From assembly GCA_001606155.1 (NCBI GenBank), contig LODT01000020.1, positions 496,001 through 560,000 on the forward strand: DNA of 64,000 nucleotides, given 5' to 3'. Shown piece after piece: positions 2,275 through 54,960 of this stretch (within the stretch, counting starts at the first letter, position 1; each line of letters begins with the position of its first letter). The position numbers and the translations under genes were made by a program. Source of the DNA: Tieghemostelium lacteum. Lineage: Eukaryota > Evosea > Eumycetozoa > Dictyosteliales > Raperosteliaceae. The notes below the pieces were generated by a model. That model saw only the letters and a list, made by a program, of their open reading frames with translations. It was not told the DNA's origin and did no database searches.

Positions 2275-3609
2275 ATGGAAAACAATAACAATAGATCAAG
2301 TTATATTCAATATATATTGGGAGTGTTTTTTATACAACATATTCGAACTATTCTTTACCACACATTGTATAGAAGATTTGGTGGTATGGTAAAAAACAGG
2401 TTCTACTATATAGCCAAAATAGCCTCGAGTGATGCCATGTACCTACAATTGGTAGAATGGTTGAGTGCTACCCAACATCTATACACTAACAGTAGACAGG
2501 TACATGTACATAGTAAACAAAACGTAGAGATGCCATTGTCATCTGAACCTCACCAGGTTATAAGTATCGGTCCAACCATCAATCAAAATGAGGATGGTAA
2601 TTCATCCATCAAAATGATACCTTCAGGAACCTCTGTATTCTTCTATAAGAGACACATGGTATCTGTGACTTTACGTAGTAACATTCGATCATCCATGGAC
2701 GAACCTTCCAGTGATACACTAGAACTCCGTGTATATCTCGGAGGCAAACAATTGATTAACGATATCCTCAAAACGGCATTTCAACACCACCTCTCCAAAA
2801 CTGAAGAAAACACCAAAATCTATCAAACTTTGCCAAATTGTAATATATGGGTTGTACAATCGTTGCAAAGAAGAAGAGAGATTGATTCTGTGTTTCTAGA
2901 TAAATCAGTTAAAGATGAACTCATTGGAGATGTGAATACATTTATTCGATCTAAACAGTGGTATAGATCGTCTGGTGTTCCCTATACTAGAGGCTACCTT
3001 TTATATGGACCACCGGGTACTGGAAAGACTAGTTTTATCCTCTCCCTTGCCGGATACTTTAACAAACAAATCTGTATAATGAACCTTGGAAGAGGAGTAT
3101 CTGATACCTCTCTATATTTTATGATTAACAAAACCCCACCAAATTCCATACTGGTATTCGAAGATGTCGATTCAGCATTTACAAATACCGGTAACCATAA
3201 TCACATAGGCCAGGACGACATGGGTAATAAACTAACTCTTCAAGGTCTATTACACGCATTAGACACTCTACCTAATTTAGATGGTAGAATACTGGTCATG
3301 ACAACTAACCACATTGAAAAGATACCTCAAGCTCTATTGTCACCTGGTAGAGTTCATCTTAAAGTTAAATTTGATTTAGCCAATCATTTCCAAATCAAAC
3401 AAATGTTTAAAAGATTCTATGAAAACAAATATAATCATCTTTTACCTGCGTTACTAAAGAAAATTGAGAATAATACTGTCTCAACTGCTCAATTACAAAA
3501 CTTATTCATAAACTACAGAGATGATCCAACAAAAATCACAGATAGTGTTTTAGACGAATTCATCTCTGATTCTGTTCTTGTAAATACTCATAAAACAAAA
3601 TATCTGTAA
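2275..3609 (+). CDS. BCS1-type AAA ATPase (mitochondrial inner-membrane chaperone family)
   Basis: A 444-residue intronless gene. Residues about 8-30 form an N-terminal membrane segment. A BCS1-specific region follows, then one AAA domain with Walker A GPPGTGKT at 245-252 and Walker B ILVFED at 292-297. The BCS1 family inserts the Rieske iron-sulphur protein into complex III of the respiratory chain. The arginine-finger stretch reads LLSPGRVH around Arg359, where the family usually has RPGRVD, so two flanking positions differ. Dictyostelids carry more than one BCS1-like gene and this may be a divergent paralogue rather than the core Rieske chaperone. The ATG follows AAAATC, an A-rich context typical of these genomes. 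Confidence 0.85.
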   Translation: MENNNNRSSYIQYILGVFFIQHIRTILYHTLYRRFGGMVKNRFYYIAKIASSDAMYLQLVEWLSATQHLYTNSRQVHVHSKQNVEMPLSSEPHQVISIGPTINQNEDGNSSIKMIPSGTSVFFYKRHMVSVTLRSNIRSSMDEPSSDTLELRVYLGGKQLINDILKTAFQHHLSKTEENTKIYQTLPNCNIWVVQSLQRRREIDSVFLDKSVKDELIGDVNTFIRSKQWYRSSGVPYTRGYLLYGPPGTGKTSFILSLAGYFNKQICIMNLGRGVSDTSLYFMINKTPPNSILVFEDVDSAFTNTGNHNHIGQDDMGNKLTLQGLLHALDTLPNLDGRILVMTTNHIEKIPQALLSPGRVHLKVKFDLANHFQIKQMFKRFYENKYNHLLPALLKKIENNTVSTAQLQNLFINYRDDPTKITDSVLDEFISDSVLVNTHKTKYL

Positions 3610-3728: not shown

Positions 3729-5288
3729 TTAATGATGACCTAACAATGGTTCATGATGTCCATGGTGGTGATGAGAATGTTTACGTCTGTAGTGGAGTAC
3801 ACATTTAATTATAGTGAATAGTAAAATTATAAATACTACAATGGAGGCAATGACAATGAATACTAAGAGACCTTTTGGAATTCCAGTGTTTTTAGGATCA
3901 TTTTTATAAGATGATGTGCATGATATATCTAGATCTGATGGTGCTGTTATTTGACAACTTGTGCAAGTCATCATGGAGGAATCAGTATTGTCATATGATG
4001 ATGTACCTTCAATTGTGATATTAGATTGTACACAATCGATTAGTTCACTGTTATCTTTAGTTGTAATACCATTTAGTGTAACTGAAGATACAATTGGAGT
4101 TATAATGGGACCTTGGTTATTCTCGAATGTTGAGTTGGAGATGGTAGAGTTTGAAGCAACAAGATTAATGATACCATCACTGGCTTTCAAGTTACTTTGG
4201 AATTGACAACCTTGGATAGTAAGGTTATTCTGACACTCGTTGGAAAAGATAATGTAAGGTGATGCAGTATTGGAGATGAATTGTGAGTTTTCAATCGAGT
4301 TTACTTGGGTAGCTAAAGTTTTAGAGAATAGAACCAATGTGTTTTGGTTACTTACAAAACTAGATCCAGAGATTATAACCTGACTACCAATACTATATAT
4401 AAGTGATTGAGCACCTAGATTTGACGTTACAATATTATTGCTGAATCCACAATTTGTAATCAGGTTTGGTTGAGCGTTGACAGTTTCTCCAAAGACTGAG
4501 AGGAAGTTGAGTGATCTTGTATTTGAGATTTGACATTCACTCATAGTTATATAACTTGATACTATTGATATAGTACTGATTCCTACTTGGATTTGGTTGA
4601 ATTTACAGTCGGTGAAATTTGCAGTTAAAAATGTACCATAGAGAACGGCACCATTACCACTTTGTATACTATTAAATTGCGAATTTGATACAACTAATGT
4701 AGTATTAGATGATCTTAGATTGAAAACTGAACCTGTTTTGAACCCTTGTTGTGATGTAAATTGCATATTTGTAAAAGTACATCCATTTACATTTACACTG
4801 ACTTTACCTAACCCAATATTAGAGTAAATGAATGAATAGGTTGAATTTGTATTATTTTGGATATTTAAGTTACGCCAAACGATATTATTCAATGAAAGAG
4901 TTGTGAGATCATGTGATGTTATATTCACTGGTTCTTTAACTAGAAATGGTACATTTCCATTATTTAATTGTGCTAAATCAATAATAGTACCACCATTAGT
5001 AGCACCGTTAATTGTAATAGTTTGTCTATAAATTCCCATAGTTTCATTTGGGAATGTATATACACCAACATCGAAATTAAAAGTCATTATAGCAGTTAAA
5101 CTTTGATTTTTACATGATTGGATAGCATCAATAATAGTAAAACAAGGGTATGCCTGAGTACCACAGTTACCAGTTACATTGGTAGTTATATTACCTTGAT
5201 CTGAAATAAATACTACACATCCATTATCTAAATTAACAGCAAAAGATAATGAAATTGTACATATTAATAATAATAATAATAATTTCAT
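3729..5288 (-). CDS. Beta-helix cell-surface membrane protein, array member 1
   Basis: A 519-residue protein with a signal peptide (1-17), an ectodomain rich in Asn, Ser and N-glycosylation sequons, a membrane helix at about 473-496 and a short cytoplasmic tail. The ectodomain has short beta-strand repeats such as SQFNSIQSGN and SSFVSNQNTL, typical of right-handed parallel beta-helices (pectin-lyase fold). A Cys motif opens it (C..CG..YPC..SC) and CTSC closes it. The tail is His-rich and ends EPLLGHH, unlike the tyrosine tails of its four paralogues. It is the 3'-most gene of five head-to-tail copies. The stop overlaps the poly(A) signal (TAAATAAA). Function is unknown; adhesion or recognition is inference. 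Confidence 0.8.
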   Translation of the reverse strand: MKLLLLLLICTISLSFAVNLDNGCVVFISDQGNITTNVTGNCGTQAYPCFTIIDAIQSCKNQSLTAIMTFNFDVGVYTFPNETMGIYRQTITINGATNGGTIIDLAQLNNGNVPFLVKEPVNITSHDLTTLSLNNIVWRNLNIQNNTNSTYSFIYSNIGLGKVSVNVNGCTFTNMQFTSQQGFKTGSVFNLRSSNTTLVVSNSQFNSIQSGNGAVLYGTFLTANFTDCKFNQIQVGISTISIVSSYITMSECQISNTRSLNFLSVFGETVNAQPNLITNCGFSNNIVTSNLGAQSLIYSIGSQVIISGSSFVSNQNTLVLFSKTLATQVNSIENSQFISNTASPYIIFSNECQNNLTIQGCQFQSNLKASDGIINLVASNSTISNSTFENNQGPIITPIVSSVTLNGITTKDNSELIDCVQSNITIEGTSSYDNTDSSMMTCTSCQITAPSDLDISCTSSYKNDPKNTGIPKGLLVFIVIASIVVFIILLFTIIKCVLHYRRKHSHHHHGHHEPLLGHH

Positions 5289-5488
5289 TTGTTATATTTA
5301 TAAACAAATCAAAAATCACGTATTAAATAAAAAAAATAATAGTTATATTGAAATGTGATCACTATTTCATTCTTTTAAAATGGGGAAAGGGAAAAAGATT
5401 TGAATGTTAGGTGGAGCTCCAAACCCAAAAAATCGAAAAAAATCAAAGACAAAAAAGATTTTTCATGTGATATTTTGCAAGGTTTTTA

Positions 5489-8017
5489 TTATAATAGGGG
5501 ACGATATTCGTCATCTACTCTTTTACTGTTGTAATGACGAATTAGTTTAAAGCAAACTGCAGCTAGACATATGAATGCAATTAGTGATATTACAATGATT
5601 AATGCTAAAACACCATTTGATAGACCACCTGGATTTTTGGTTGCTTCTTCTGATGAACCAGATGCTGAACTGGAGTCTGTGGGGACTGAACAGACAGCAT
5701 TGATAGGTGAAACAGTTGTCAATACACAATTGGTACATAGAATCTCTTTTGAGGTATCAGTATCAGTGTCTAGACTCTGACTTACTGTGATATTGGATTG
5801 TTGACATTCTGCCAAATGTTGATTGGATCCTTTACTTACAATACCATTGAGATATACAAATGCCTGGTTAGTGGCATCCACTACAAATCCTTCATTGGAG
5901 GTAAATGTAGTATTTTGAATGTGTATAGTGGATTTTGAAGCTTGAACAATAGCTACTGATATTTCGTTATTTGTAAATGTACATTGTTGAATGAGGGTAT
6001 TTGATGAACTTCCACTGACTATAATAGTCGAAACTAGGTGGTCATCAAAATTTGAATTTTGTATTGTGGTTGGTGGTATTTTGGCTGGTGAGTTTAGTAC
6101 TAAAACTGCTGGAATTTTGTTACTTGTGAATTTGGATGCATCTACTATTACATAACTACCTTGAGATGAAATCAAAGCACTTTGACTATTAGAGCCACTT
6201 TGGATTTGTAAATTGTATTGGAATGTACAGTTTTGAATCCATTGTGCAGCTGGTAGAAGATCAGGATCTATTATTTGACCATAGGATGCAAAGAAATTCT
6301 GAGATGTTACTGAAGATATCAAACAGTGTGTTAGTGTACTGTATCCATTAACTGAACTTATTACACCGTTACTTGTTACAATATTGGAAAATGTAGTTTG
6401 TGTGAATGTGGAATTTACTTGGAACCCATTAAGAGCAGGACCGTTATACCCATTCAATGATGATAATACACTATTGGCTACTGTTACAATAGCTAATGTA
6501 TTGGCATTTATATTTAATAGTGATCCAGATTGAATATTATTTCCAAAGTTCATTTGAGTGAAAGTACATGATTTTATATTAACAATTAATTTTGATAATT
6601 GTAATTTGGCATATAAGAATGACTGTTGGATTATAATACCATTGTTCCAGTTTAGGTTCTGTGCAATTAAATTGTTAAATGTTACCGTTGTTATATCCAA
6701 ATTAGAGAAGATATTGGATTCTTGGATGACAAATGGAGGATTATTGGATAGTAAACTTAGATCCAATGTAGTGTTACCAGCTGGTGATCCGTTTAAAGTT
6801 ATGGTTTGTTTAAAAAATACAATTGACTCGTTGGATAATGTGTATGTACCAACATCAAAATTAAAAGTCATTACAGTGGTTTGGCTTTGATTAATACATG
6901 ATTGAATTGCAGCTTCTAATGTCAAACATGGATTCATTTTCATATTACTACCACAATTAATTCCATTAGTTTTAGATGTACTTGATATATATTTTATACA
7001 TTCACTCTCTGAGCTATCTGAACTACTTCCTACACTACTGCCCTCAGATGATTCTGAACTATTCCCACTTGACGTTGATGACTCTGAAGATGAATAACTA
7101 ATACTACTATCTGATTCTGATCCACCACTACTAGATGATTCTGATCCACCACTACTCGTCGAAGATTCTGAACCACTACTGTTGATAGATGAATCGGATG
7201 CACTTCCTGCAGAGGATGAGTCTGAACTAGATTTGGAATCAGAACTGGAATTTTCAGAACTATTCTTGGAATCAGAGTTACTATCATCACTACCTTTTGA
7301 TTCTGAGCTATTTTTAGAATCAGAGTTACTATCATCACTTCCATTTGATTCAGAACTACTCTTTGAATCAGAATTACTATCATCACTTCCCTTCGATTCA
7401 GAACTACTCTTTGAATCAGAGTTACTATCATCACTTCCCTTCGATTCAGAACTACTCTTTGAATCAGAATTACTATCATCACTTCCCTTTGAATCAGAAC
7501 TACTCTTTGAATCAGAGTTACTATCATCACTACCTTTCGATTCAGAACTATTTTTAGAATCAGAGTTGGTATCATCACTACTTTTTGATTCAGATCCATT
7601 GGTGGAATCAGAATTGGTGTTTTCAGAGCTACTCTTTGAATCAGAATTACTATCATCACTACCTTTTGATTCAGAACTACTCTTTGAATCAGAGTTGTTA
7701 TCATCACTACCTTTGGATTCAGAACTATTTATTGGCTCAGAGTTGGTATTTTCAGAACTGTTCATTGAATCAGAGTTGCTATCACCACTACCCTTTGATT
7801 CGGAACTATTAATTGGCTCTGAATTATCAGAACCAGTTGTAGAACCTGTTGTAGAACCTGTTGTTGAACCTGTTATTGAGCCAGTACCTGTTACAGCTGA
7901 AGTTTCACCTTCTCTAACTGTTAAAAGGAATGCATCGTTAAAATCCAATGATCTAGCATTCAATTGACTAAGTGTGATAATGAATAATAACAATAAAATA
8001 AAAATAAGTTTCCTCAT
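5489..8017 (-). CDS. Beta-helix cell-surface membrane protein with Ser/Asp repeat stalk, array member 2
   Basis: An 842-residue paralogue. Order: signal peptide (1-21), a stalk of about 280 residues made of 16-residue Ser/Asp/Lys repeats (core ESKGSDDSNSDSK), the Cys motif (CI..CGSN..NPC..SC), about 430 residues of beta-helix repeats, CTNC, a membrane helix (about 800-825) and the tail DDEYRPLL. YRPL fits the YxxPhi sorting signal recognised by clathrin adaptors. The stalk resembles, in composition only, the Sdr repeats that lift bacterial adhesins off the surface. The long opposite-strand reading frame over the stalk is a by-product of the repeat. A role as an extended surface receptor or adhesin is inference. 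Confidence 0.8.
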   Translation of the reverse strand: MRKLIFILLLLFIITLSQLNARSLDFNDAFLLTVREGETSAVTGTGSITGSTTGSTTGSTTGSDNSEPINSSESKGSGDSNSDSMNSSENTNSEPINSSESKGSDDNNSDSKSSSESKGSDDSNSDSKSSSENTNSDSTNGSESKSSDDTNSDSKNSSESKGSDDSNSDSKSSSDSKGSDDSNSDSKSSSESKGSDDSNSDSKSSSESKGSDDSNSDSKSSSESNGSDDSNSDSKNSSESKGSDDSNSDSKNSSENSSSDSKSSSDSSSAGSASDSSINSSGSESSTSSGGSESSSSGGSESDSSISYSSSESSTSSGNSSESSEGSSVGSSSDSSESECIKYISSTSKTNGINCGSNMKMNPCLTLEAAIQSCINQSQTTVMTFNFDVGTYTLSNESIVFFKQTITLNGSPAGNTTLDLSLLSNNPPFVIQESNIFSNLDITTVTFNNLIAQNLNWNNGIIIQQSFLYAKLQLSKLIVNIKSCTFTQMNFGNNIQSGSLLNINANTLAIVTVANSVLSSLNGYNGPALNGFQVNSTFTQTTFSNIVTSNGVISSVNGYSTLTHCLISSVTSQNFFASYGQIIDPDLLPAAQWIQNCTFQYNLQIQSGSNSQSALISSQGSYVIVDASKFTSNKIPAVLVLNSPAKIPPTTIQNSNFDDHLVSTIIVSGSSSNTLIQQCTFTNNEISVAIVQASKSTIHIQNTTFTSNEGFVVDATNQAFVYLNGIVSKGSNQHLAECQQSNITVSQSLDTDTDTSKEILCTNCVLTTVSPINAVCSVPTDSSSASGSSEEATKNPGGLSNGVLALIIVISLIAFICLAAVCFKLIRHYNSKRVDDEYRPLL
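7260..7810 (-). repeat. 48-bp tandem repeat coding the Ser/Asp stalk
   Basis: About eleven units of 48 bp (16 codons), the central ones nearly identical and the outer ones diverged or partly deleted. The period stays in frame, so unit gain or loss changes stalk length without breaking the gene. Confidence 0.9.
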
Positions 8018-8205
8018 TCTATTTTTATTATCTGTAGTTATTGTTGTTGCACTATAAAATTATAAAGGATTATAAAAAAAAATCTTGATATTTCTGATTA
8101 AAATTCTACGTTTTTGTAAAAAGAAGAGAACACTGTTCCGCTCCTGGTTTTTTTATTATTTAAATAATTTATAAAATATTTATATTGAACACATCTATTT
8201 TTAGA

Positions 8206-10119
8206 TTATTGAATTGGTTGATAACCATCACGTTTTTTGATGAAATGTTTAGTTAGACCATATCCAAGAGCTATTAGACCGATACCAGCTACAATGCCGA
8301 TGATGATAATGAATGCCAAAAGACCTTTGGATAAACCTTTGTTATTATTAGTTTTTGATTTATCACTGGATGAGTCACTAGAGGTACAAGATAAACTAGT
8401 TGAGGTAATTGAACAATCTTGTTGACAACTAATTTCAGAATCTTCAATATCATTCTCACCGGAAATGGTAATTGTTGAACTTGTACAATCAATGAATTTA
8501 AAATCACCGCTGTTATTCATTACAATTCCATCAACTGAAACATTGGCAGTACCATTAGTTGACAAAATAGTTGCTTGGTTAGAGTCAAATGTCAATAGAG
8601 TTAGTGAGAGTACTGAATCACTTGCAGCGATAAGACCGGTATTAGCTTCGTTTCCTGTAAAATCATTGGAAGTTAATTTAACGTTACTTCCACTTGCAGC
8701 AAGTACAATATAATCAGCATCGTTATCTTTAAATTGTGAGTTTTGGATGGTTGATGGTTGGTTAGCTGGTGAATTAGCTATCCAAACTGATGGCATTGGA
8801 TTATTGTAGAATTGTGTGGTATCAATTATAATTTGACTGTTACCGAAATATACTAAAGAACCAGTTCCATACATTCTATTGTTGGTAAATACTGAGTTTT
8901 GAATGAGTTGTGGTTTGGAGGTTAAAAGTTGGTTCAGGGAGAATATGAATGATAATGCAACGTTATTGGTAATGGAGCAATCAATGATCTGATTGAATGA
9001 GTAATCTGTTTGGATAAGTGAATATTTGGCATTGTTATTGTTGAATGTACAGCTGGTGAATGTACTTGACACTCCTTGGCCAAATAGAGCTAAACCTACA
9101 GCACCTTTAAGTTGAACAAAACTGGTATTGACAACATTGATATTGATGGCTATTTGACTTGATTGGAGATTGAAAACAGATCCAGCTACATTACCAGCAC
9201 CAGATCCAAAATACATTTGATAGAATGAAGAATGGGAAACTTGGATATCAACAGAACTTTGTTTGGTATCAACTTTCATCATTGAGTTATTGATATCTAC
9301 TGAATTGGCCCAGTTTAAGTTAATAAAGTTAATATAGTTGATAGTAAATGTTGTGGAATCTAATGTGACGGATGTCTCAGGTTCTATGATAATGAATGGA
9401 GCATTGTTACCAACTAGACTAAGATCAATATAGGTCTTACCTGAATCATCACCATTAAAAGTAATTGCTTGGTTATAAAAGTTGGATGTTTGATTAGAGA
9501 GATAGAAAGTACCGATACCAAAATTAAAAGTCATAGATGATGTTAGATTCTGATTTGTACATGATTTAAGAGCTTCATCATAGGAATAACATGGATTTGT
9601 AGTCATATCACTACCACAATTTTCACCACTAGAGTTGGTAGTGGCATTTGCAGCTGATATATAAATTACACAAGTAACTGGTTCATTTGAGTTATTAGAA
9701 CCTTCGGATGAGTTAGATGGAATTGGGGTGTGATTGGAACCATCTGATGATGAGTTTGATGGAACATCTGATGATGCGTTTGATGGAACATCTGATGATG
9801 AGTTTGATGGAACATCTGATGATGAGTTTGATGGAACATCTGATGATGCGTTTGATGGGACATCTGATGATGCGTTTGATGGAACATCTGATGATGCGTT
9901 AGATGGAATTGGGGTTTGATTGGAGCCATCTGATGATGAGTTAGTTGGAATTGGGGTGTGATTGGAACCATCTGATGATGAGCTGGATGTAATTGGTTCA
10001 GTTGAATTTGAAATACTAGATTCCAATAAATTTTCATTTAAATTAATAAATGATTTGCCATTACTTTGCACAAATAAAATAAAAACTAAAACAAATATTA
10101 AAATAATTTTTTTGTTCAT
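8206..10119 (-). CDS. Beta-helix cell-surface membrane protein with SDVPSNAS stalk, array member 3
   Basis: A 637-residue paralogue. Order: signal peptide (1-22), stalk of about 100 residues with repeats of SSDVPSNA or SSDVPSNS and flanking GSNHTPIP units, Cys motif (C..CGSD..NPC..SC), beta-helix region, a CQQDC motif, membrane helix (about 600-625) and tail GYQPIQ. YQPI again fits YxxPhi. The juxtamembrane stretch GLSKGLLAFI is shared with members 1, 2 and 4. The stalk is unrelated in sequence to that of member 2, so stalks were gained or replaced separately. Confidence 0.8.
   Translation of the reverse strand: MNKKIILIFVLVFILFVQSNGKSFINLNENLLESSISNSTEPITSSSSSDGSNHTPIPTNSSSDGSNQTPIPSNASSDVPSNASSDVPSNASSDVPSNSSSDVPSNSSSDVPSNASSDVPSNSSSDGSNHTPIPSNSSEGSNNSNEPVTCVIYISAANATTNSSGENCGSDMTTNPCYSYDEALKSCTNQNLTSSMTFNFGIGTFYLSNQTSNFYNQAITFNGDDSGKTYIDLSLVGNNAPFIIIEPETSVTLDSTTFTINYINFINLNWANSVDINNSMMKVDTKQSSVDIQVSHSSFYQMYFGSGAGNVAGSVFNLQSSQIAININVVNTSFVQLKGAVGLALFGQGVSSTFTSCTFNNNNAKYSLIQTDYSFNQIIDCSITNNVALSFIFSLNQLLTSKPQLIQNSVFTNNRMYGTGSLVYFGNSQIIIDTTQFYNNPMPSVWIANSPANQPSTIQNSQFKDNDADYIVLAASGSNVKLTSNDFTGNEANTGLIAASDSVLSLTLLTFDSNQATILSTNGTANVSVDGIVMNNSGDFKFIDCTSSTITISGENDIEDSEISCQQDCSITSTSLSCTSSDSSSDKSKTNNNKGLSKGLLAFIIIIGIVAGIGLIALGYGLTKHFIKKRDGYQPIQ
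9741..9905 (-). repeat. 24-bp tandem repeat coding the SSDVPSNA stalk
   Basis: Six to seven 24-bp units (8 codons) that differ mainly by one base switching Ala and Ser codons. The repeat stays in frame. Confidence 0.9.
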
Positions 10120-10331
10120 TTTATATATATCTGCTATAGAGTTTTAAAACGAAATTAAAAAAACAATTAGAACAATTTGATTTATTCTTGTTTGTTAAAG
10201 ATTTTTTTCTGTGCTTTTCGGTAATGTGTTTAAAAGTCGGGATTTATGATGATATCAAAACCAGAGATATTTTAGAAAAGGCGGACGAAAAATCCTAAAA
10301 TTATAAGAATCTTTATTTTTGTTAGCGTTTA

Positions 10332-11882
10332 TTAGAGCACAGAGTAACCACGAGATTTGTGGATAAAATGTGTAATAGTATGGTAGCTGACTACAATGAG
10401 ACCTGCTAAGCCTACTACTGAGATGATTACAATAAAGGCAATGAGGCCTGATGACAATCCTTTTGATGTTTTAGTGGGTGGGAATGTAGTGGCAGGTTGA
10501 GAACAAGAGAAATCATCATTGGTAGAGGTGATTGTACAATTGGTACACTGTAAACTAGTGGTATCTATTTGAATTTGATTGTCACCTGTAAATGCTATTG
10601 TGGATTGAGAGCATGCAAGTAAATCAAAATTATTATTATTATCAACTACTAGATTATTAGATGTAACATTACTGTTAGTGACAGTTAATATCAAGCCACT
10701 ATTGGATGAAAATGATAGAGATGTGATATTTAGATCAGAAAAGTAAGTGTACAGTATTGATGAGGATAATTGGTTTCTAGCAAATGTAGAGTTTTGTATT
10801 GACAGTGTAGTTGAATATTGAGTTGTTATGACATAGGATCCTATAGAAGCACCATAGAATTGACAATTTTCTACTGTGGATCCATTTAAAGATTTCATAA
10901 TTGAAATGGATGGCATTTGGTTATTTTCACTAAATAGTGAATCTTGTACAGAAACTGCTGTTGCAACAGTATAAATAACTGCAGTGGTTGAACCATCTTT
11001 TTGGAAACCATTTTGAGTAAATGTACAGTTTTTGATAATTTGTGTTGATGAGGGTGAATCTGAGACCCCCAAAATCATTGCATTTCTACATTCACTGAAA
11101 TCACAAGAAATCAAACTATTCTGACTGTTTTCATTATAAATGATACTGGTAGTTGATGTGATTTGATTAAATGTGCATGAATTGAATATAGATGTTATTG
11201 AGTACCCATCAACAACTACAGAACCACCACCTTCAAGTTGTGTAAACTGACTTGAAAATACATTCAAGTATACCAACTGACCAACTGAATTTAGATTAAA
11301 AATCGAACCTCTACTACCAACAGTTGTACTTGACCCAAAATACATTCTATCAAATACACAATTATCAGAGTTTATCTGTACAGTACTGATATTAGAGTTC
11401 ACTGTAATGAATGATTGTTGATTAACGTTAGGTGAGGTCCAACTCATGTTCTGTACAACCACCCAATTCAAATTTATATGTGTTATATCGTTTTTAGTTG
11501 CAACTGTTGAATTAGGTTCTTGAACTACAAATACAGAGTCTACAGTCATTGAACCCATATCCAATACAGTGTTTCCCGATAAATGGCCATTCAATGAAAT
11601 TCTCTGATTGTATAATGAAACGACTTGGTTTTCAAATAGAAATGTACCAATATCAAAATTAAATGTCATATCAGATGTTATATTTTGATCAATGCAAGCT
11701 TGTAATGCACTGTTAAAACTCTGACATGGATTAGTTTGCATGTTACTTCCGCAATAGGTTATATTATCATTCACTGGATAATTTAGTGAAATATATACAA
11801 CACAAGTTGTATTTTGTGATAATGCACTACCTATAAAAGTTCCTAAAATTAATAATAATACTACAAATATTTGATGTTTCAT
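10332..11882 (-). CDS. Beta-helix cell-surface membrane protein, array member 4
   Basis: A 516-residue paralogue without a repeat stalk. The signal peptide (1-22) leads directly into the Cys motif (C..CGSN..NPC..AC), the beta-helix region and the CTNC motif. A membrane helix follows at about 479-503, preceded by GLSSGLIAFI, and the protein ends KSRGYSVL. YSVL is a YxxPhi signal ending exactly at the C terminus. The stop codon overlaps AATAAA (TAATAAA). Function is unknown beyond family inference. Confidence 0.8.
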   Translation of the reverse strand: MKHQIFVVLLLILGTFIGSALSQNTTCVVYISLNYPVNDNITYCGSNMQTNPCQSFNSALQACIDQNITSDMTFNFDIGTFLFENQVVSLYNQRISLNGHLSGNTVLDMGSMTVDSVFVVQEPNSTVATKNDITHINLNWVVVQNMSWTSPNVNQQSFITVNSNISTVQINSDNCVFDRMYFGSSTTVGSRGSIFNLNSVGQLVYLNVFSSQFTQLEGGGSVVVDGYSITSIFNSCTFNQITSTTSIIYNENSQNSLISCDFSECRNAMILGVSDSPSSTQIIKNCTFTQNGFQKDGSTTAVIYTVATAVSVQDSLFSENNQMPSISIMKSLNGSTVENCQFYGASIGSYVITTQYSTTLSIQNSTFARNQLSSSILYTYFSDLNITSLSFSSNSGLILTVTNSNVTSNNLVVDNNNNFDLLACSQSTIAFTGDNQIQIDTTSLQCTNCTITSTNDDFSCSQPATTFPPTKTSKGLSSGLIAFIVIISVVGLAGLIVVSYHTITHFIHKSRGYSVL

Positions 11883-12001
11883 TTTGATGGAAATCTTGAA
11901 ATTTTAAAAAAAAAATATCCCTCATTAATAATAATAAAAATATCTAAAGAAATATTATCTATATTACTTGGAATTTTAAAGATATAAGGTATAGATATTT
12001 A

Positions 12002-13630
12002 TTAATGCAATAAATGATAATCGTGTTTACCATGTCTATATTTTTTAACCATGAAAACAATGAAGAGAATTAAACCTAAAAATACAACACCACCAATACA
12101 GATAAATAGGATATCTAATGGTTCAAGTTTAGGTTTCCTCTTGTCAGATGATGAATTTGATTGATTTGAACATTGGAATTGTTGATCTGTTGAACTTAGT
12201 GTACAATCTTCTTGACAATTGACAGAGTGAGCATAGAGAGTGTTCTCTTGATCACTAATAGATACATTGATATTTAAACCTGTTAGTGACACTGTTGAAC
12301 TTAGACAATTTAATAAACCTGTAGATTTGTTATCGTCAGAGATTACATTGGAAATTTCAACTTGTGCACAATTGTTGGTGTATATTGAAACACCAGTATT
12401 TCCAGTAAATGTTCCATTAAAGATCTGAATTGAATCTGCATTGGTTACAGTTACAATACCATAATTATGTAGTTGGGCTGTAGCTATACTGTTTCCAATA
12501 AACTCACATTGGTTTATAAACAATTGTGATTGAACATCTGCTACTACAACTGGTCCACTACTATTCTCAAAAGTTACATTAGACAATGTATTTAAATTGG
12601 ATGCAAAATACTTAACCCATAATCCTGGTATACTGTTATTTGAAAATACAGAGTTTTTCAATAAAAGTGTAGATGCAAAGGATAAGATTATTGATTGGTT
12701 GCCTCCTGCAGCTCCATAGTTATCACTGAATTTTGAACCCTCAATAACAGGTACTTGTGTGGGTTCATCATCATTAGCAATCATAATTAAACCATTGAAA
12801 TGTACATTTGATTTTGATATTTCAAGTCCTTGGAAGTTTACACCACCGAATTGAGAATAGATCAATGAACTATTTGATGATGAATTTGTGATTATAACTG
12901 ATGTGAGATATAAATCAACCATATATTGTGCATTGAATACAGCACCCGACTCAGCACTGATTCCAGTAAAATTTGTGTTCAATACAGAGACACTTATAGT
13001 CTTTGGATCTTTACCTGCAACATGTTGATCATTTACAAACAAATTGAATACAACACCAGATTCACCATATGCATTGCTGAAAACAGAGTCCACAACACTG
13101 ATTAGAGTCTGACAGACACTAGAATTCACATATACAATACTACCGGCAGTGGTCTGTGTAATTCCATAATAATTCTGAAAATTCATTTGATTGATATTCA
13201 AACTTGTGACATCAGTAGTTTTGGAAGTCTGTGTATTCTCAATAATTGAAAATACAGTTGACTTTATATTTGACAAATCAAAAATAGTACCACCAGAGGG
13301 ATCACCAACCAAAGTCACAAATTGATTATAAAATGATAATGTTTGGTTTTTAGTTAATTCATAAGTACCATTATCAAATATAAAAAACATATTTCCTGTG
13401 ATACTTTGATTTATACAAGATTGAACACCAAGATCCAATGAAGGGCATGGATTTTTAATATTATCACTACCACAATTACTATAGGAGCTGTTTACTGCAT
13501 TATTAACTGATATATAGATTGTACATTTTTCATCTCCCAAATTTGGTATTACACTAGCAGCATTTGTTGATTTAATATTTATATTACAAATTACTACAAG
13601 TAATAATAACAATAGATATGATTTCGTCAT
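12002..13630 (-). CDS. Beta-helix cell-surface membrane protein, array member 5
   Basis: A 542-residue paralogue, the first of the array in transcription order and the most diverged. It has a signal peptide (1-24), the Cys motif (C..CGSD..NPC..SC), beta-helix repeats, a CQEDC motif, a membrane helix (about 505-527) and the tail KHDYHLLH. YHLL fits YxxPhi. It lacks the GLSxGL juxtamembrane stretch of the others. The stop overlaps the poly(A) signal (TAATAAATATC). Confidence 0.8.
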   Translation of the reverse strand: MTKSYLLLLLLVVICNINIKSTNAASVIPNLGDEKCTIYISVNNAVNSSYSNCGSDNIKNPCPSLDLGVQSCINQSITGNMFFIFDNGTYELTKNQTLSFYNQFVTLVGDPSGGTIFDLSNIKSTVFSIIENTQTSKTTDVTSLNINQMNFQNYYGITQTTAGSIVYVNSSVCQTLISVVDSVFSNAYGESGVVFNLFVNDQHVAGKDPKTISVSVLNTNFTGISAESGAVFNAQYMVDLYLTSVIITNSSSNSSLIYSQFGGVNFQGLEISKSNVHFNGLIMIANDDEPTQVPVIEGSKFSDNYGAAGGNQSIILSFASTLLLKNSVFSNNSIPGLWVKYFASNLNTLSNVTFENSSGPVVVADVQSQLFINQCEFIGNSIATAQLHNYGIVTVTNADSIQIFNGTFTGNTGVSIYTNNCAQVEISNVISDDNKSTGLLNCLSSTVSLTGLNINVSISDQENTLYAHSVNCQEDCTLSSTDQQFQCSNQSNSSSDKRKPKLEPLDILFICIGGVVFLGLILFIVFMVKKYRHGKHDYHLLH

Positions 13631-17651: not shown

Positions 17652-19577
17652 TTAAGATAGACCAATAATTTGACCGGTATTTACATCAATTTCATGTTCA
17701 TAAAAGACAGGTCTAGTTGGTAGACCTGGAATAGTTTGAATCTTACCGACTAAAGCAACAATGAAACCAGCACCACAACTAGCTTTAACTTCTCTAATTG
17801 GAAGTATAAATCCAGTAGGAACACCCTTTTTCTCTGGATCATGACTGAATGATAAATGTGTTTTTGCCATACATACAGGTAACTTATCAAATCCTTGTTT
17901 GGTATACAACTGAATCTTTTCTTCAGCCTCTGGAGTATATTCAACACCATCAGCACCATAAATCTCACGAGCTATAGTTTCAATCTTTTCCTTAATTGTC
18001 TTTTCCAATGGATAGAGGAACTTAAAGTTATCAGCAGAGTTCTCAGCACATGCTTTCTCAACTGCTTTTGCTAATTCTACAGCACCCTTTCCACCTTCAG
18101 CCCAATGATTGCACATAATGGCACTATTAGCACCTGCAGCCAAAGCTTCATTTACCAATAGACAGACTTCACTGTCTGTATCAGTTGAGAAACGGTTGAC
18201 TGCAACGACTACAGAAACACCAAATTTCTTTAGATTTCTAATATGTTGAGCTAAATTTTCAACACCTTTTTTTAAGAGATCTAAATTCTCATTGGTATAG
18301 GCCTTGTCCAATGGAGTTCCTGCGACTACTTTAGGACCACCACCATGCATTTTCAGTGCTCTTATAGTTGCAACAATAACTGAACAATTTGGTTTCAAAC
18401 CTGAATAACGACATTTGATATCAGCCATCTTTTCAAACCCGATATCAGCACCAAACCCAGCTTCGGTTACTACATAACCTTCTTTTCCAACGAGTTTGAG
18501 TGCAATTTGATCAGCGAGAATGGAACTGTTTCCATGAGCTATATTTGCAAATGGACCTGCGTGTACTAACACTGGGGTACCTTCTAGAGTTTGCATAAGA
18601 GTTGGCATGATGGCGTCTCTCATGAGGATTGTGAGTGAACCTCCAACACCCAAGTCATCAGCAGTGATTGGTTCACCACTCTTTGATGGACCAATAACCA
18701 TATCACCTAATCTCTTTCTCATGTCACCTAAAGAAGTAGCAAGAGCTAAAACAGCCATAATCTCAGAAGCCACACTGATATCAAAATTTGTCTTTCTTTG
18801 GAACTTTTCCTCTTCTTTACCTTGTCCAATGGTAATTCCTCTGAGGAATCTGTCATTGACATCCAATACACGATTCCAAGTAATGAGATTTGGATCGATA
18901 TCTAGTCTTACAAATCTTGAGATTTCTTGGTCAGTCAATTCAGATGGGTTTCGTTTGGTTATGCCTAATTTCTCTAATCTCTTAATCATAACTGGTGAGA
19001 AGGATTTACTTCCGTCTTTAGCCTCTGGACATAATCTCTTCCATAATTGTTGATCAGTTTGAGTAGATTCATGTAGAATTCTAGTATCAATAGCAGCAGC
19101 TAATAGATTATTTGCAGCTGTAATTGCGTGAATATCTCCTGTTAAATGTAGATTAAATTCCTCCATTGGTATAACTTGTGAGTAGCCACCACCAGCAGCA
19201 CCACCTTTGATACCAAATGTTGGTCCTTGAGATGGTTGTCTGATACAACTGAAAACCTTCTTGTTCAGGTGTGCACCTAATGCCTGACAAAGACCTATAG
19301 TAGTTGTGGATTTACCCTCACCAAGTGGTGTAGGTGTAATACCAGTGACAACAACATAATTACCATTCACTTGATTCTTTAGTCTATCCAAAATAGATAA
19401 ATTTACTTTAGCTTTGTATTTTCCGTAAAAATCAATTTCATCCTCTAAGATACCACAGTGTTCGGCAATCTTTGAAATCAAAAGTGGTTTTACAGAAGTT
19501 GCAATTTCAATATCTGAAGGTACTGGTACCTTTAAATCCAATTTTGGATAAGTGAAGTTCTCACTTTTATTCATCAT
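17652..19577 (-). CDS. Formate-tetrahydrofolate ligase (10-formyl-THF synthetase), monofunctional
   Basis: A 641-residue enzyme that makes 10-formyl-THF from formate, THF and ATP, feeding purine synthesis and one-carbon metabolism. The ATP-binding loop [12 protein letters not shown] lies at about 81-92. Other family blocks are [32 protein letters not shown] and [10 protein letters not shown]. Animal and yeast enzymes are usually fused to a dehydrogenase/cyclohydrolase domain. Here the gene begins with about 30 residues before the synthetase fold and has no such domain, so it is a stand-alone ligase of the length seen for the eukaryotic synthetase domain. Two ATGs lie in tandem at the start (MMNKS); I keep the first. 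Confidence 0.95.
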
Positions 19578-52413: not shown

Positions 52414-54960
52414 TTATTTCCTACCAGTTATTGATTTCCATTCTTCAATTTGAGCCTCCAAGTTTTTATTTGGAATGAAAATAGATATATGAAATGGTTT
52501 ACCAGTAATAAAAGAAATATTTTTATCCTTTAGATATTCTAACAATGTTGACCTGTCATAAGTATAACCATCTGGTGCTATAACTGGATGTTCCATTAGA
52601 ATATTACCAATAGGACATTTAAAATACATTGGAATTGTATTGGGATCAGATATATTAAAAAAATGGTTTTGTACCATTGCATTACTTTGATTACTCATTC
52701 TATTAGGAATTTGTAACTGTAATTGTTTTTGTTGAATATTTACACTATTATTATTAATATTATTAATATTATTATTATAATTCATGTTATTGTTTTTTGT
52801 AAAACTATGATTGTCATCTCTATTATTGGAGTTTGCTTCATCTACATTTTGAGCAATTTCGAGTTTACGTAATTTGGTATAGAATTGAGTAACCTTATTA
52901 TCAACTTTAAAACAAGACATTGGAATGTCATCCAATATTTGTAAGCCCTCAAGTGAACGTACTCTTGAGAGGGCAACATAAGTTTGACCATTTTCAAATA
53001 CTCTTGAAAGGGAAATCTGAGCAAAATCAAGAGATAGACCTTGACTCTTGTGAATGGTAACAGCCCATGCTAATTTAATTGGTATTTGTAGACGATAGAT
53101 TCTTTCCGCACCTTCAAAATATACAGAATAGGCTTCTGGTTTTATAATTTCAATTTCTCCACTCACAAATCTTACAATAGGTAGACAATGATGTTTGGAA
53201 TTTTTTAAATAGGTACTTGCTAACTTTAGAATATCTCTCATTTTCTCTTGTTGCCAAGATTCCATCGGTGGTTCGTTTCTTTCCAACTTTTCAAATATCT
53301 TTGTAAGTTTCTCTGGGGAGAGATCCACAAAACCTATAACAACACCTCTGCTGCCATTAACCAACTTTGACGAGATATTTCTTACCAACATTATCTGTGC
53401 TCCCTTTTTTAGAATAATTCTACTCTGTGCCAAACAGTTCTTCTTTGAGTTCTCAAAAACCACTTGAAGAAATGTAGTTTTCTTTTCATCTAAACCCTCA
53501 TCAGCAGCCAACTTATCCTGAGCGTCGTATTCTAAAATTTCATTTTGAATTTGATTGAGATAGTACAAATTCTTTTCCTCCACTCTCATGTTGGTAGTAT
53601 AGAGAATAGTTGGTTGAATTCCATTTTTAATTTTAATTGGTTTCTGACAAGTTTTCAAAGCATCCATTATATCAGAATCAATTTTACCAATACGAATCTT
53701 GGAGAGGATATTAGAGAAATACGTATCTTTCTGTCTGTAGATTTCTTGTAATTCTACAGTGGCTTCAATGGAACTCGCCCATTGTTCACCTTCGAAACAA
53801 AGTTTACGTTTTTTTACCAAACATTGATCGGTATCAGGTGGTGCATTTAAATCATTTTTCAAATTTGGTACTGGAGGTAATTGATAGAAATCACCTGATA
53901 AAACAATCTGTATACCACCCCATGGAAGGTTCTTAGGGTCAGGATACCTATCTTTTTGTCTATAACCTCTCTTTAAATTACCTTTCAATCTAATTAATCT
54001 TGCAATCTTTTCTAAATTATCAAATAACTCTCCATCTAACATTGAAACTTCATCAATAATCAGAACCTCTGCTTCTTTCCAATTCTTTTTCTTTCCATAT
54101 GCCGAATTTAATAATACCTGAAATGGTTCATTTCCCAATCTAATTCCAGCAAAGGAATGTATAGTAGTACCAGATATATTCAAAGCTGCTATACCAGTAG
54201 TCGCTGTTACAAATGTAGTTATACCCATTTCATTCAGTTCTTTTACAAGTACATGTAAGAGATAAGATTTACCAGTTCCACCAGGACCTGTAAAGAACAC
54301 ATTTGCTCTCTCTTTAACCACATAGTCATAAACCTTCATTTGCTTTTCATTGAAAAATGATTTATCATAAACAAATGGGTTGGTAGGTTCTTGTTTCTCA
54401 AATTTCTTGAGAATCTCTGCTTCCATTAATTCTAAAGTCTCTTCAAATGATATTACATCATTATCCTTTAAGATATCAGAAATATCACCACTCACAACAC
54501 ATCTATCATGATATCTATCATTACTATCTATTGTATTATTGTTATTATTATCTGGTTTAAACTTTTTAATTGGTGGTTTTAAATGATTTGGTGGTGATAC
54601 AGCTAGATTTTTTGGTGATGGTAATTTACTACTACTAACAGTTGAAGAGTTTGGATTTAATTTTAAAGGTGTTGTATTATAGTTTGGTTTCTGAGGTCCA
54701 GGTACAAATTTATTTAGTGAAATTGAATTATCTGTATGACCATTATGGTTATCTGTTGAAGTATCTCTTATATCATCTATTAAATTCTTAGATATCTGTT
54801 TATCTTTTGGCTTTTTAGTTATGGGAATATAATCTAATATTAAACTATCAATATCGTCATCATAATCACTTCTGCTGTCATTTACAGGTTTAAATTCTTC
54901 TTCCCATTCATCTTCATCTAAATTTATTACTTCTTCTATTGATGTTCTTTTTTTGTTCAT
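52414..54960 (-). CDS. PIF1-family DNA helicase fused to a C-terminal U-box
   Basis: An 848-residue intronless protein. Residues about 205-730 form a PIF1-type superfamily 1B helicase: Walker A GPGGTGKS (225-232), TATTGIAALNISGTTIHSFAG, Walker B LIIDEVSML, LSGDFYQLPP and the C-terminal VTIHKSQGLSLD..YVALSRVRSLEGL. After an Asn-rich linker comes a U-box (about 778-845): MYFKCPIGNILMEHPVIAPD, YDRSTLLEYL and NLEAQIEEW. PIF1 helicases unwind G-quadruplexes and act on mitochondrial and telomeric DNA; U-boxes are E2-binding ubiquitin-ligase folds. Having both in one open frame is unusual and suggests a helicase that ubiquitinates proteins at its DNA substrate. Confidence 0.9.
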   Translation of the reverse strand: MNKKRTSIEEVINLDEDEWEEEFKPVNDSRSDYDDDIDSLILDYIPITKKPKDKQISKNLIDDIRDTSTDNHNGHTDNSISLNKFVPGPQKPNYNTTPLKLNPNSSTVSSSKLPSPKNLAVSPPNHLKPPIKKFKPDNNNNNTIDSNDRYHDRCVVSGDISDILKDNDVISFEETLELMEAEILKKFEKQEPTNPFVYDKSFFNEKQMKVYDYVVKERANVFFTGPGGTGKSYLLHVLVKELNEMGITTFVTATTGIAALNISGTTIHSFAGIRLGNEPFQVLLNSAYGKKKNWKEAEVLIIDEVSMLDGELFDNLEKIARLIRLKGNLKRGYRQKDRYPDPKNLPWGGIQIVLSGDFYQLPPVPNLKNDLNAPPDTDQCLVKKRKLCFEGEQWASSIEATVELQEIYRQKDTYFSNILSKIRIGKIDSDIMDALKTCQKPIKIKNGIQPTILYTTNMRVEEKNLYYLNQIQNEILEYDAQDKLAADEGLDEKKTTFLQVVFENSKKNCLAQSRIILKKGAQIMLVRNISSKLVNGSRGVVIGFVDLSPEKLTKIFEKLERNEPPMESWQQEKMRDILKLASTYLKNSKHHCLPIVRFVSGEIEIIKPEAYSVYFEGAERIYRLQIPIKLAWAVTIHKSQGLSLDFAQISLSRVFENGQTYVALSRVRSLEGLQILDDIPMSCFKVDNKVTQFYTKLRKLEIAQNVDEANSNNRDDNHSFTKNNNMNYNNNINNINNNSVNIQQKQLQLQIPNRMSNQSNAMVQNHFFNISDPNTIPMYFKCPIGNILMEHPVIAPDGYTYDRSTLLEYLKDKNISFITGKPFHISIFIPNKNLEAQIEEWKSITGRK

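Follow-up and report, generated by a model that had tools for sequence, protein, structure and literature searches.

Organization of the array and its family

A 64-kb stretch of the Tieghemostelium lacteum genome (contig C17, bases 496001-560000; called the window below) carries an array of five genes, W1 to W5, for membrane proteins with a predicted beta-helix ectodomain and a short C-terminal tail. They are five intact open reading frames (ORFs) that follow one another in head-to-tail order on the - strand (3729-13630 of the window), separated by gaps of 119-212 bp. W2-W5 can be aligned to W1 over their length with 26-36% identity, and a whole-genome search with W4 returned the other four members at E-values of 1.6e-71 to 3.5e-33, so that the similarity within the array is beyond chance. 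The original prediction for this locus, that of five adjacent same-strand paralogues, was thus confirmed. A hydrophobic N-terminus is present in all five proteins, in line with the signal peptide that had been proposed, and each ends in one membrane helix followed by a tail of 14-25 residues, again as predicted. The features, in window coordinates, are as follows.

3729..5288, - strand: W1, 519 amino acids (aa); signal peptide, Cys-capped beta-helix, membrane helix and tail (ORF and alignment)
3918..5219, - strand: W1 beta-helix ectodomain, first to last invariant Cys, residues 24-457
3732..3806, - strand: W1 cytosolic tail, 25 aa, ...HHEPLLGHH, LL type
5489..8017, - strand: W2, 842 aa (ORF and alignment)
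7001..7948, - strand: W2 Ser/Asp-rich N-terminal leader, about residues 24-339, partly a 48-bp tandem repeat, membrane-distal
5690..7000, - strand: W2 beta-helix ectodomain, residues 340-776
5492..5548, - strand: W2 tail, 19 aa, ...DDEYRPLL, YxxPhi overlapping [DE]xxxLL
8206..10119, - strand: W3, 637 aa (ORF and alignment; Pfam Beta_helix 6.9e-08)
9673..10050, - strand: W3 Ser/Asn/Pro-rich N-terminal leader, about residues 24-149, with a 24-bp tandem repeat at 9735-9908
8386..9672, - strand: W3 beta-helix ectodomain, residues 150-578
8209..8250, - strand: W3 tail, 14 aa, ...RDGYQPIQ
10332..11882, - strand: W4, 516 aa (ORF and alignment; AlphaFold2 pLDDT 83.6, pTM 0.79)
10503..11804, - strand: W4 beta-helix ectodomain, residues 27-460 (model and Cys alignment)
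10335..10382, - strand: W4 tail, 16 aa, ...SRGYSVL
12002..13630, - strand: W5, 542 aa, the most divergent of the five (Pfam Beta_helix 2.1e-08; AlphaFold2 pLDDT 80.2, pTM 0.77)
12170..13525, - strand: W5 beta-helix ectodomain, residues 36-487 (Cys alignment and model)
12005..12046, - strand: W5 tail, 14 aa, ...HDYHLLH

The five-gene array exists, but it is not the whole family. When the genome (23.3 Mb, 43 contigs) was searched with array members and paralogues and the ORFs were read, at least 20 intact members were found, 15 of them dispersed: four on C4 (216-226 kb), seven on C31 (at 895, 965, 1011, 1014, 1018, 1020 and 1263 kb) and one each on C2, C11, C21 and C24. The C31_1020 and C31_1263 copies are 83% identical. 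Searches with C24_735 and C21_52 as queries gave no further full-length member in the genome. Left outside the 20 were weak matches at C42:157611-157973 (E 0.009) and C29:662735-662863 (E 0.008), long beta-helix frames on C11, C18, C19 and C37, Beta_helix matches on C29, C23:1765045 and C40, and the two proteins L051 (GH28-like) and L052 (PMP type) that are described below. Since these weak matches and other Beta_helix frames were set aside, 20 is a lower bound. In a tree of the ectodomains, a branch of modest support (73/42; 72% of 200 bootstrap trees) sets the array apart from the other members, so that it probably arose by local expansion.

At least two broken or partial copies also lie outside the 20, namely a 57% piece at C24:893845-894006 and the locus L045 (C31:978700-980300), which is broken and has no tail. 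On its + strand, L045 holds pieces of a beta-helix gene like C2_149, whose frame contains neither membrane helix nor tail, and from this sequence it appears to be a decayed or rearranged copy of such a gene. The - strand of the same locus (L045:1229-1600) has a C-terminal fragment that includes a membrane helix and, in its tail, neither YxxPhi nor LL; by eye it is like the end of L056, a protein with TIG domains.

Sorting signals in the cytosolic tails

The clathrin adaptors AP-1, AP-2 and AP-3 recognise, in cytosolic tails, the tyrosine signal YxxPhi and the acidic dileucine signal [DE]xxxL[LI] (PMC5297682; this and the other articles given by PMC number are cited from part of their text). 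The C-terminus of LAMP1 is GYQTI and uses all three adaptors, the dileucine signal of LIMP-2 is DERAPLI and the signal of sortilin is YSVL (PMC5297682).

With tail limits set by a hydropathy rule, the tails of the 20 members are 11-37 residues long, and every one of them carries a YxxPhi or LL motif close to its end. Fourteen have YxxPhi followed by no more than four residues, including four of the five array members, and the other six (W1, C31_1011, C31_1014, C31_1018, C31_965 and C24_735) have LL near the C-terminus instead. The tail of W4 ends in YSVL, identical to the sortilin signal, and that of W2 fits the full [DE]xxxL[LI] consensus as well as YxxPhi. When each tail was shuffled 20,000 times, YxxPhi with at most seven residues after it, seen in 14/20 tails, was met in a mean of 2.35 (standard deviation (sd) 1.40, highest 9), and YxxPhi or [LI][LI] in the last 11 residues, seen in 20/20, in a mean of 5.04 (sd 1.84, highest 13). 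Under tighter rules (at most four residues after YxxPhi; L[LI] in the last nine) the count was 20/20 members against 15 of 63 other C-termini, the latter taken from frames of at least 250 aa, some of which may not be genes.

In 9 of the 14 tails, 7-9 residues separate the first YxxPhi Tyr from the membrane helix, and the spacing between Tyr motif and membrane in LAMP1 is similar. LAMP1 targeting depends on this spacing, according to the title of Rohrer 1996 in the references of PMC5297682.

The LL-only type (six rows) requires four changes on the ectodomain tree and three to four in the bootstraps, while the strongly supported branches force only one; with about four changes, the signal type would have switched repeatedly without being lost. 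One such change can be followed by eye in C31_965, the sister of the C31_1020/C31_1263 pair (86/69), where IYTPLI has become INTPLL: the Tyr is replaced, LL is gained, and the apparent loss of one signal thus coincides with the rise of the other. Eight matches to the adaptor mu-type domain PF00928, a family that we take to include the mu subunits and some related coat proteins, were found on six contigs of the genome. The tails are the strongest functional clue to the family.

The ectodomain and its cysteines

The beta-helix ectodomain of the original prediction is supported by structure prediction, in which AlphaFold2 gave a right-handed beta-helix for the two members modelled, W4 (mean pLDDT 83.6) and W5 (80.2). 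The Pfam family Beta_helix is above its cut-off in two of the five array members (W3 and W5), W2 passes as well once its stretches in a six-frame search are added up, and 7 of the 20 family members match at E 0.01. The nearest solved folds are mostly polysaccharide-binding or polysaccharide-cleaving beta-helices, such as tailspikes, alginate epimerases and alginate lyases. A profile search against PDB sequences gave one match, HalA, at E 0.07, which was not used.

Eight Cys are invariant in all 20 members. The shared N-terminal Cys motif that had been noticed holds throughout, with a spacing of exactly 10 between the third and fourth Cys in 20/20, and the Cys pair proposed before the membrane is indeed there, though it is not just a pair but part of a set of four C-terminal Cys. 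The first-to-second Cys spacing is 28-36 in three C31 paralogues versus 14-22 in the other 17, and these three seem to carry a smaller insert within the N-terminal cap, which is also the membrane-distal end.

It had further been claimed that the proteins have stalks that differ strongly in type and length, and this did not hold. The long Ser-rich segments sit between the signal peptide and the first Cys, across the helix from the membrane, and occur in only 2/20 genes, both in the array: the first Cys is at residue 340 in W2 and 150 in W3, versus 24 in W1, 27 in W4 and 36 in W5. The juxtamembrane linker is 16, 26, 20, 17 and 19 residues in W1-W5 and 16-28 residues in all 20 members. The variable stalk was therefore rejected. 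Across the Ser-rich repeat of W2 (7001-7948), a second - frame and the + strand have open frames as well, probably as an effect of repeat composition.

Catalytic residues and selection

In the alignment of the 20 members, no column has acidic residues, or His, in at least 14 rows, and Lys/Arg columns at that level occur only past the membrane helix. The absence of a conserved charged or His column in the helix makes an enzyme unlikely; a polysaccharide lyase was rejected on these grounds. A frame of 428 aa elsewhere in the genome, L051 (C4:572900-574400, - strand), does resemble a GH28 polygalacturonase and keeps NTD/NTDG and DD motifs, which we take to be the GH28 motifs; it is likely, from these motifs, a true pectinase of T. 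lacteum.

The sole recent duplicate pair is identical in 441 of 542 aligned columns, and the ratio of nonsynonymous to synonymous rates (dN/dS) was estimated on it. Counting gave dN 0.085, dS 0.093 and a ratio of 0.91, and likelihood with codon frequencies gave 0.77, with twice the log-likelihood difference (2 dlnL) of 1.28 against a ratio of 1; strong overall positive selection was thus rejected in this pair. The ratio was 0.70 for the ectodomain (2 dlnL 2.14) and 1.9 for membrane helix and tail (2 dlnL 0.40). Four of nine sixty-codon windows exceeded 1 by counting. Of two windows that were picked for likelihood after the counts were seen, codons 420-480 differed from 1 (2 dlnL 6.88, uncorrected) and codons 120-180 did not (2 dlnL 1.35). 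This one pair shows weak overall constraint with possible local diversification.

Relation to known membrane proteins

A hmmscan of the 20 members at E 0.01 listed 10 families, with no LAMP, CD36, TIG or PMP (PF02415) among them, and membership of these four was rejected by profile at that threshold. No NCBIfam family was matched by W1-W5. The likeness to LAMP1 and LAMP2 is in layout: they are type I proteins with a large Cys-bearing lumenal domain, one membrane helix and a very short YxxPhi tail, as are 14/20 members, and W2 and W3 also share Ser-rich segments with them. Unlike in LAMPs, the lumenal fold is a predicted beta-helix (two members modelled) and six members have LL instead of YxxPhi. 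Because the lumenal domain differs, the family is LAMP-like in layout but not of the LAMP family, and as far as tested by these profiles the two do not appear to be homologous.

The PLL/PLI tail ends recall the LIMP-2 dileucine signal, and LIMP-2 and the dictyostelid LmpA-C, of scavenger receptor class B, are lysosomal or phagosomal membrane proteins. LIMP-2 has two membrane spans and a CD36 fold, unlike the array family. Dajumin is a dictyostelid membrane protein that is sorted to its organelle by its C-terminal part. TgrB1 and TgrC1 belong to a multigene family. They too are single-pass dictyostelid membrane proteins (PMC11088635), while the array family is predicted to have a beta-helix. 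TgrB1 and TgrC1 have immunoglobulin folds and known high polymorphism (PMC11088635). A right-handed beta-helix ectodomain is also known from the polymorphic membrane proteins (PMPs) of Chlamydia, from PfbA and from pertactin, but these are bacterial and anchored in other ways, and PF02415 is lacking in the 20 members, though it is present in L052. The pectate/alginate lyase-type enzymes share the right-handed beta-helix fold but differ in that the family has no conserved catalytic charged residues.

A proposed role in the endolysosomal system

The reading that we consider rather probable is that the array encodes adaptor-sorted type I glycoproteins of the endolysosomal or phagosomal system, with YxxPhi or LL as the C-terminal signal and a beta-helix as a coat or polysaccharide binder in the lumen. 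AP-1, AP-2 and AP-3 would sort the proteins by the motif at the extreme C-terminus. The ectodomain would be one right-handed beta-helix, capped by four Cys at each end, held 16-28 residues above the membrane and facing the lumen of the compartment, where it would most likely serve as a protease-resistant, carbohydrate-interacting coat or as a binder of polysaccharide from ingested bacteria. Such a role would be comparable to that of the LAMPs and LIMP-2, which line animal lysosomes. That the signals work, which compartment they lead to and whether a lumenal coat or binding role follows are points that we infer.

Several observations weigh against this proposal. As a short motif that also mediates the ordinary endocytosis of surface receptors, YxxPhi does not by itself imply residence in endosomes, and 8 of the 63 background C-termini have YxxPhi near the end too (one of the eight is L052, itself a beta-helix protein). 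Among the six LL-only tails, the full [DE]xxxL[LI] consensus is present only in C24_735, so that of the two signal types LL gives the weaker argument. Both the "near the end" rule and the "LL" rule were drawn up once the tails had been viewed, and the 20 rows are related; each of these facts weakens the tail statistics. N-glycan sequons are not enriched in the 20 members (266 versus 243.5 expected from composition, sd 12.9), and at this composition level heavy glycosylation is not a special feature.

The account closest to the proposal is that of phagocytic or endocytic pattern receptors, which would bind polysaccharide of bacterial or self origin on the cell surface and rely on these tails for internalisation and recycling. 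The two overlap, so that their chances are not exclusive, and they differ in the main place of work; a prey-binding receptor that cycles through phagosomes is compatible with the data. In LAMP1, AP-2-dependent internalisation is likewise driven by YxxPhi (PMC5297682). For D. discoideum, only a small number of phagocytic receptors have been found, and lectin-like ones are suspected (PMC5758549). The solved folds nearest to the ectodomain point the same way, but the alignment has no conserved charged or His surface site. On balance, work mainly at the surface is possible yet the less likely form of the idea. Display of the beta-helix outside the cell for allorecognition or cell-cell adhesion, with specificity arising from diversity among members and strains, was the role originally suggested. 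The ratios above 1 in some sixty-codon stretches of the youngest pair leave real room for it, but endocytic or lysosomal-type signals in 20/20 tails do not support it, no variable stalk is present and the overall dN/dS is not above 1. The allorecognition pair TgrB1/TgrC1 has immunoglobulin-fold ectodomains (PMC11088635), and the seven C-termini that could be read among the abundant TIG proteins of the genome are of other kinds. This role is accordingly regarded as improbable, and with a lysosomal-type signal in every tail the array members are probably not variable-stalk surface receptors.

Membrane proteins of the contractile vacuole, of the dajumin kind, would be sent by a C-terminal signal to the osmoregulatory network and not to lysosomes. 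The C-terminal region of dajumin directs it to the contractile vacuole. Dajumin-GFP labels contractile vacuole membranes only (PMC2653498), and for the array proteins such a destination is given a small chance. The chance is slighter by far for membrane-anchored polysaccharide-degrading enzymes of the pectate/alginate-lyase fold, against which stand both the missing acidic and His columns and the catalytic motifs retained in the GH28-like L051.

If the tails of the endolysosomal proposal work as read, an unannotated multigene family would supply the glycoproteins that line lysosomes and phagosomes in bacteria-eating cells, with a fold unlike that used by animals. Either digestive membranes would here have a convergent means of protecting themselves, or the family would provide phagosomal recognition proteins that have been missing so far. 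The analysis also corrects the idea that the array consists of surface receptors with variable stalks. A bolder and rather doubtful extension is that dictyostelids built a LAMP-like lining of lysosomes and phagosomes from an unrelated beta-helix scaffold, with about 20 genes in T. lacteum, that some copies act as intraphagosomal pattern receptors for bacterial polysaccharide, and that YxxPhi and LL are swappable but never lost.

The phagocytic receptors named for Dictyostelium are the Sib proteins, LmpA-C and suspected lectins (PMC5758549), and the main text of that article contains no word starting with "helix". For T. lacteum, 53 lineage-specific expansion families have been reported; the parts of that article examined do not name the beta-helix family, and its main text has no word starting with "pectin", "tandem" or "transmembrane" (PMC8535579). 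That article drew on dictyExpress data for T. lacteum. At the level of titles and abstracts, in a partial coverage of the literature, no description of the family was found.

Other proteins of the genome and neighbouring genes

The one member traced to a named record is C31_895 (hypothetical protein DLAC_08893). A protein-database search gave W1 together with nine unnamed proteins in which Pfam recognises beta-helix or PMP domains. Scoring was restricted to the 7991 candidates with the most words in common, a list that Ser-rich words had probably filled. With residues 120-239 of C31_895, a part picked for shared words, the protein itself was the only one found among 107 candidates. A ribophorin I control showed that dictyostelid proteins are present in the database; given the limited reach, absence of relatives in other dictyostelids is not established by these searches.

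The genome has at least 150 matches to the TIG domain, which marks the immunoglobulin-type class that includes TgrB1 and TgrC1. Reading 12 TIG loci and five C-terminal stretches yielded seven distinct C-termini that have a hydrophobic end; five further frames ended without a hydrophobic segment and three ran past the locus or were unlisted. Six of the seven stop inside or just after the hydrophobic stretch, without a tail, and resemble glycosylphosphatidylinositol-anchor signals; one of these, L059, has YCIL within the hydrophobic end and counts as a mechanical YxxPhi match. The seventh, L056, has a tail with neither YxxPhi nor LL. L052 (C23:1319460-1320965) has PMP repeats (PF02415), Cys motifs that are presumably EGF-like, a membrane helix and the tail RRKKQTHSYQQIN (YQQIN end), and thus the YxxPhi tail type also occurs on a separate beta-helix protein; the first exon of this frame may be missing.

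A scan of the window for sigma-70-type promoters stayed at chance level, and this motif type does not apply to an amoeba. Neighbours of the array, read by eye, look like a Bcs1-type AAA ATPase (2275-3609), a formate-tetrahydrofolate ligase (17652-19577) and a PIF1-like helicase fused to a U-box (52414-54960), and the window also carries a ribophorin I frame. A frame that adjoins its left edge (L032:5213-8743, equal to C17:494212-497742) is a type I site-1 protease (MBTPS1) by Pfam, with SVPLL near its C-terminus.

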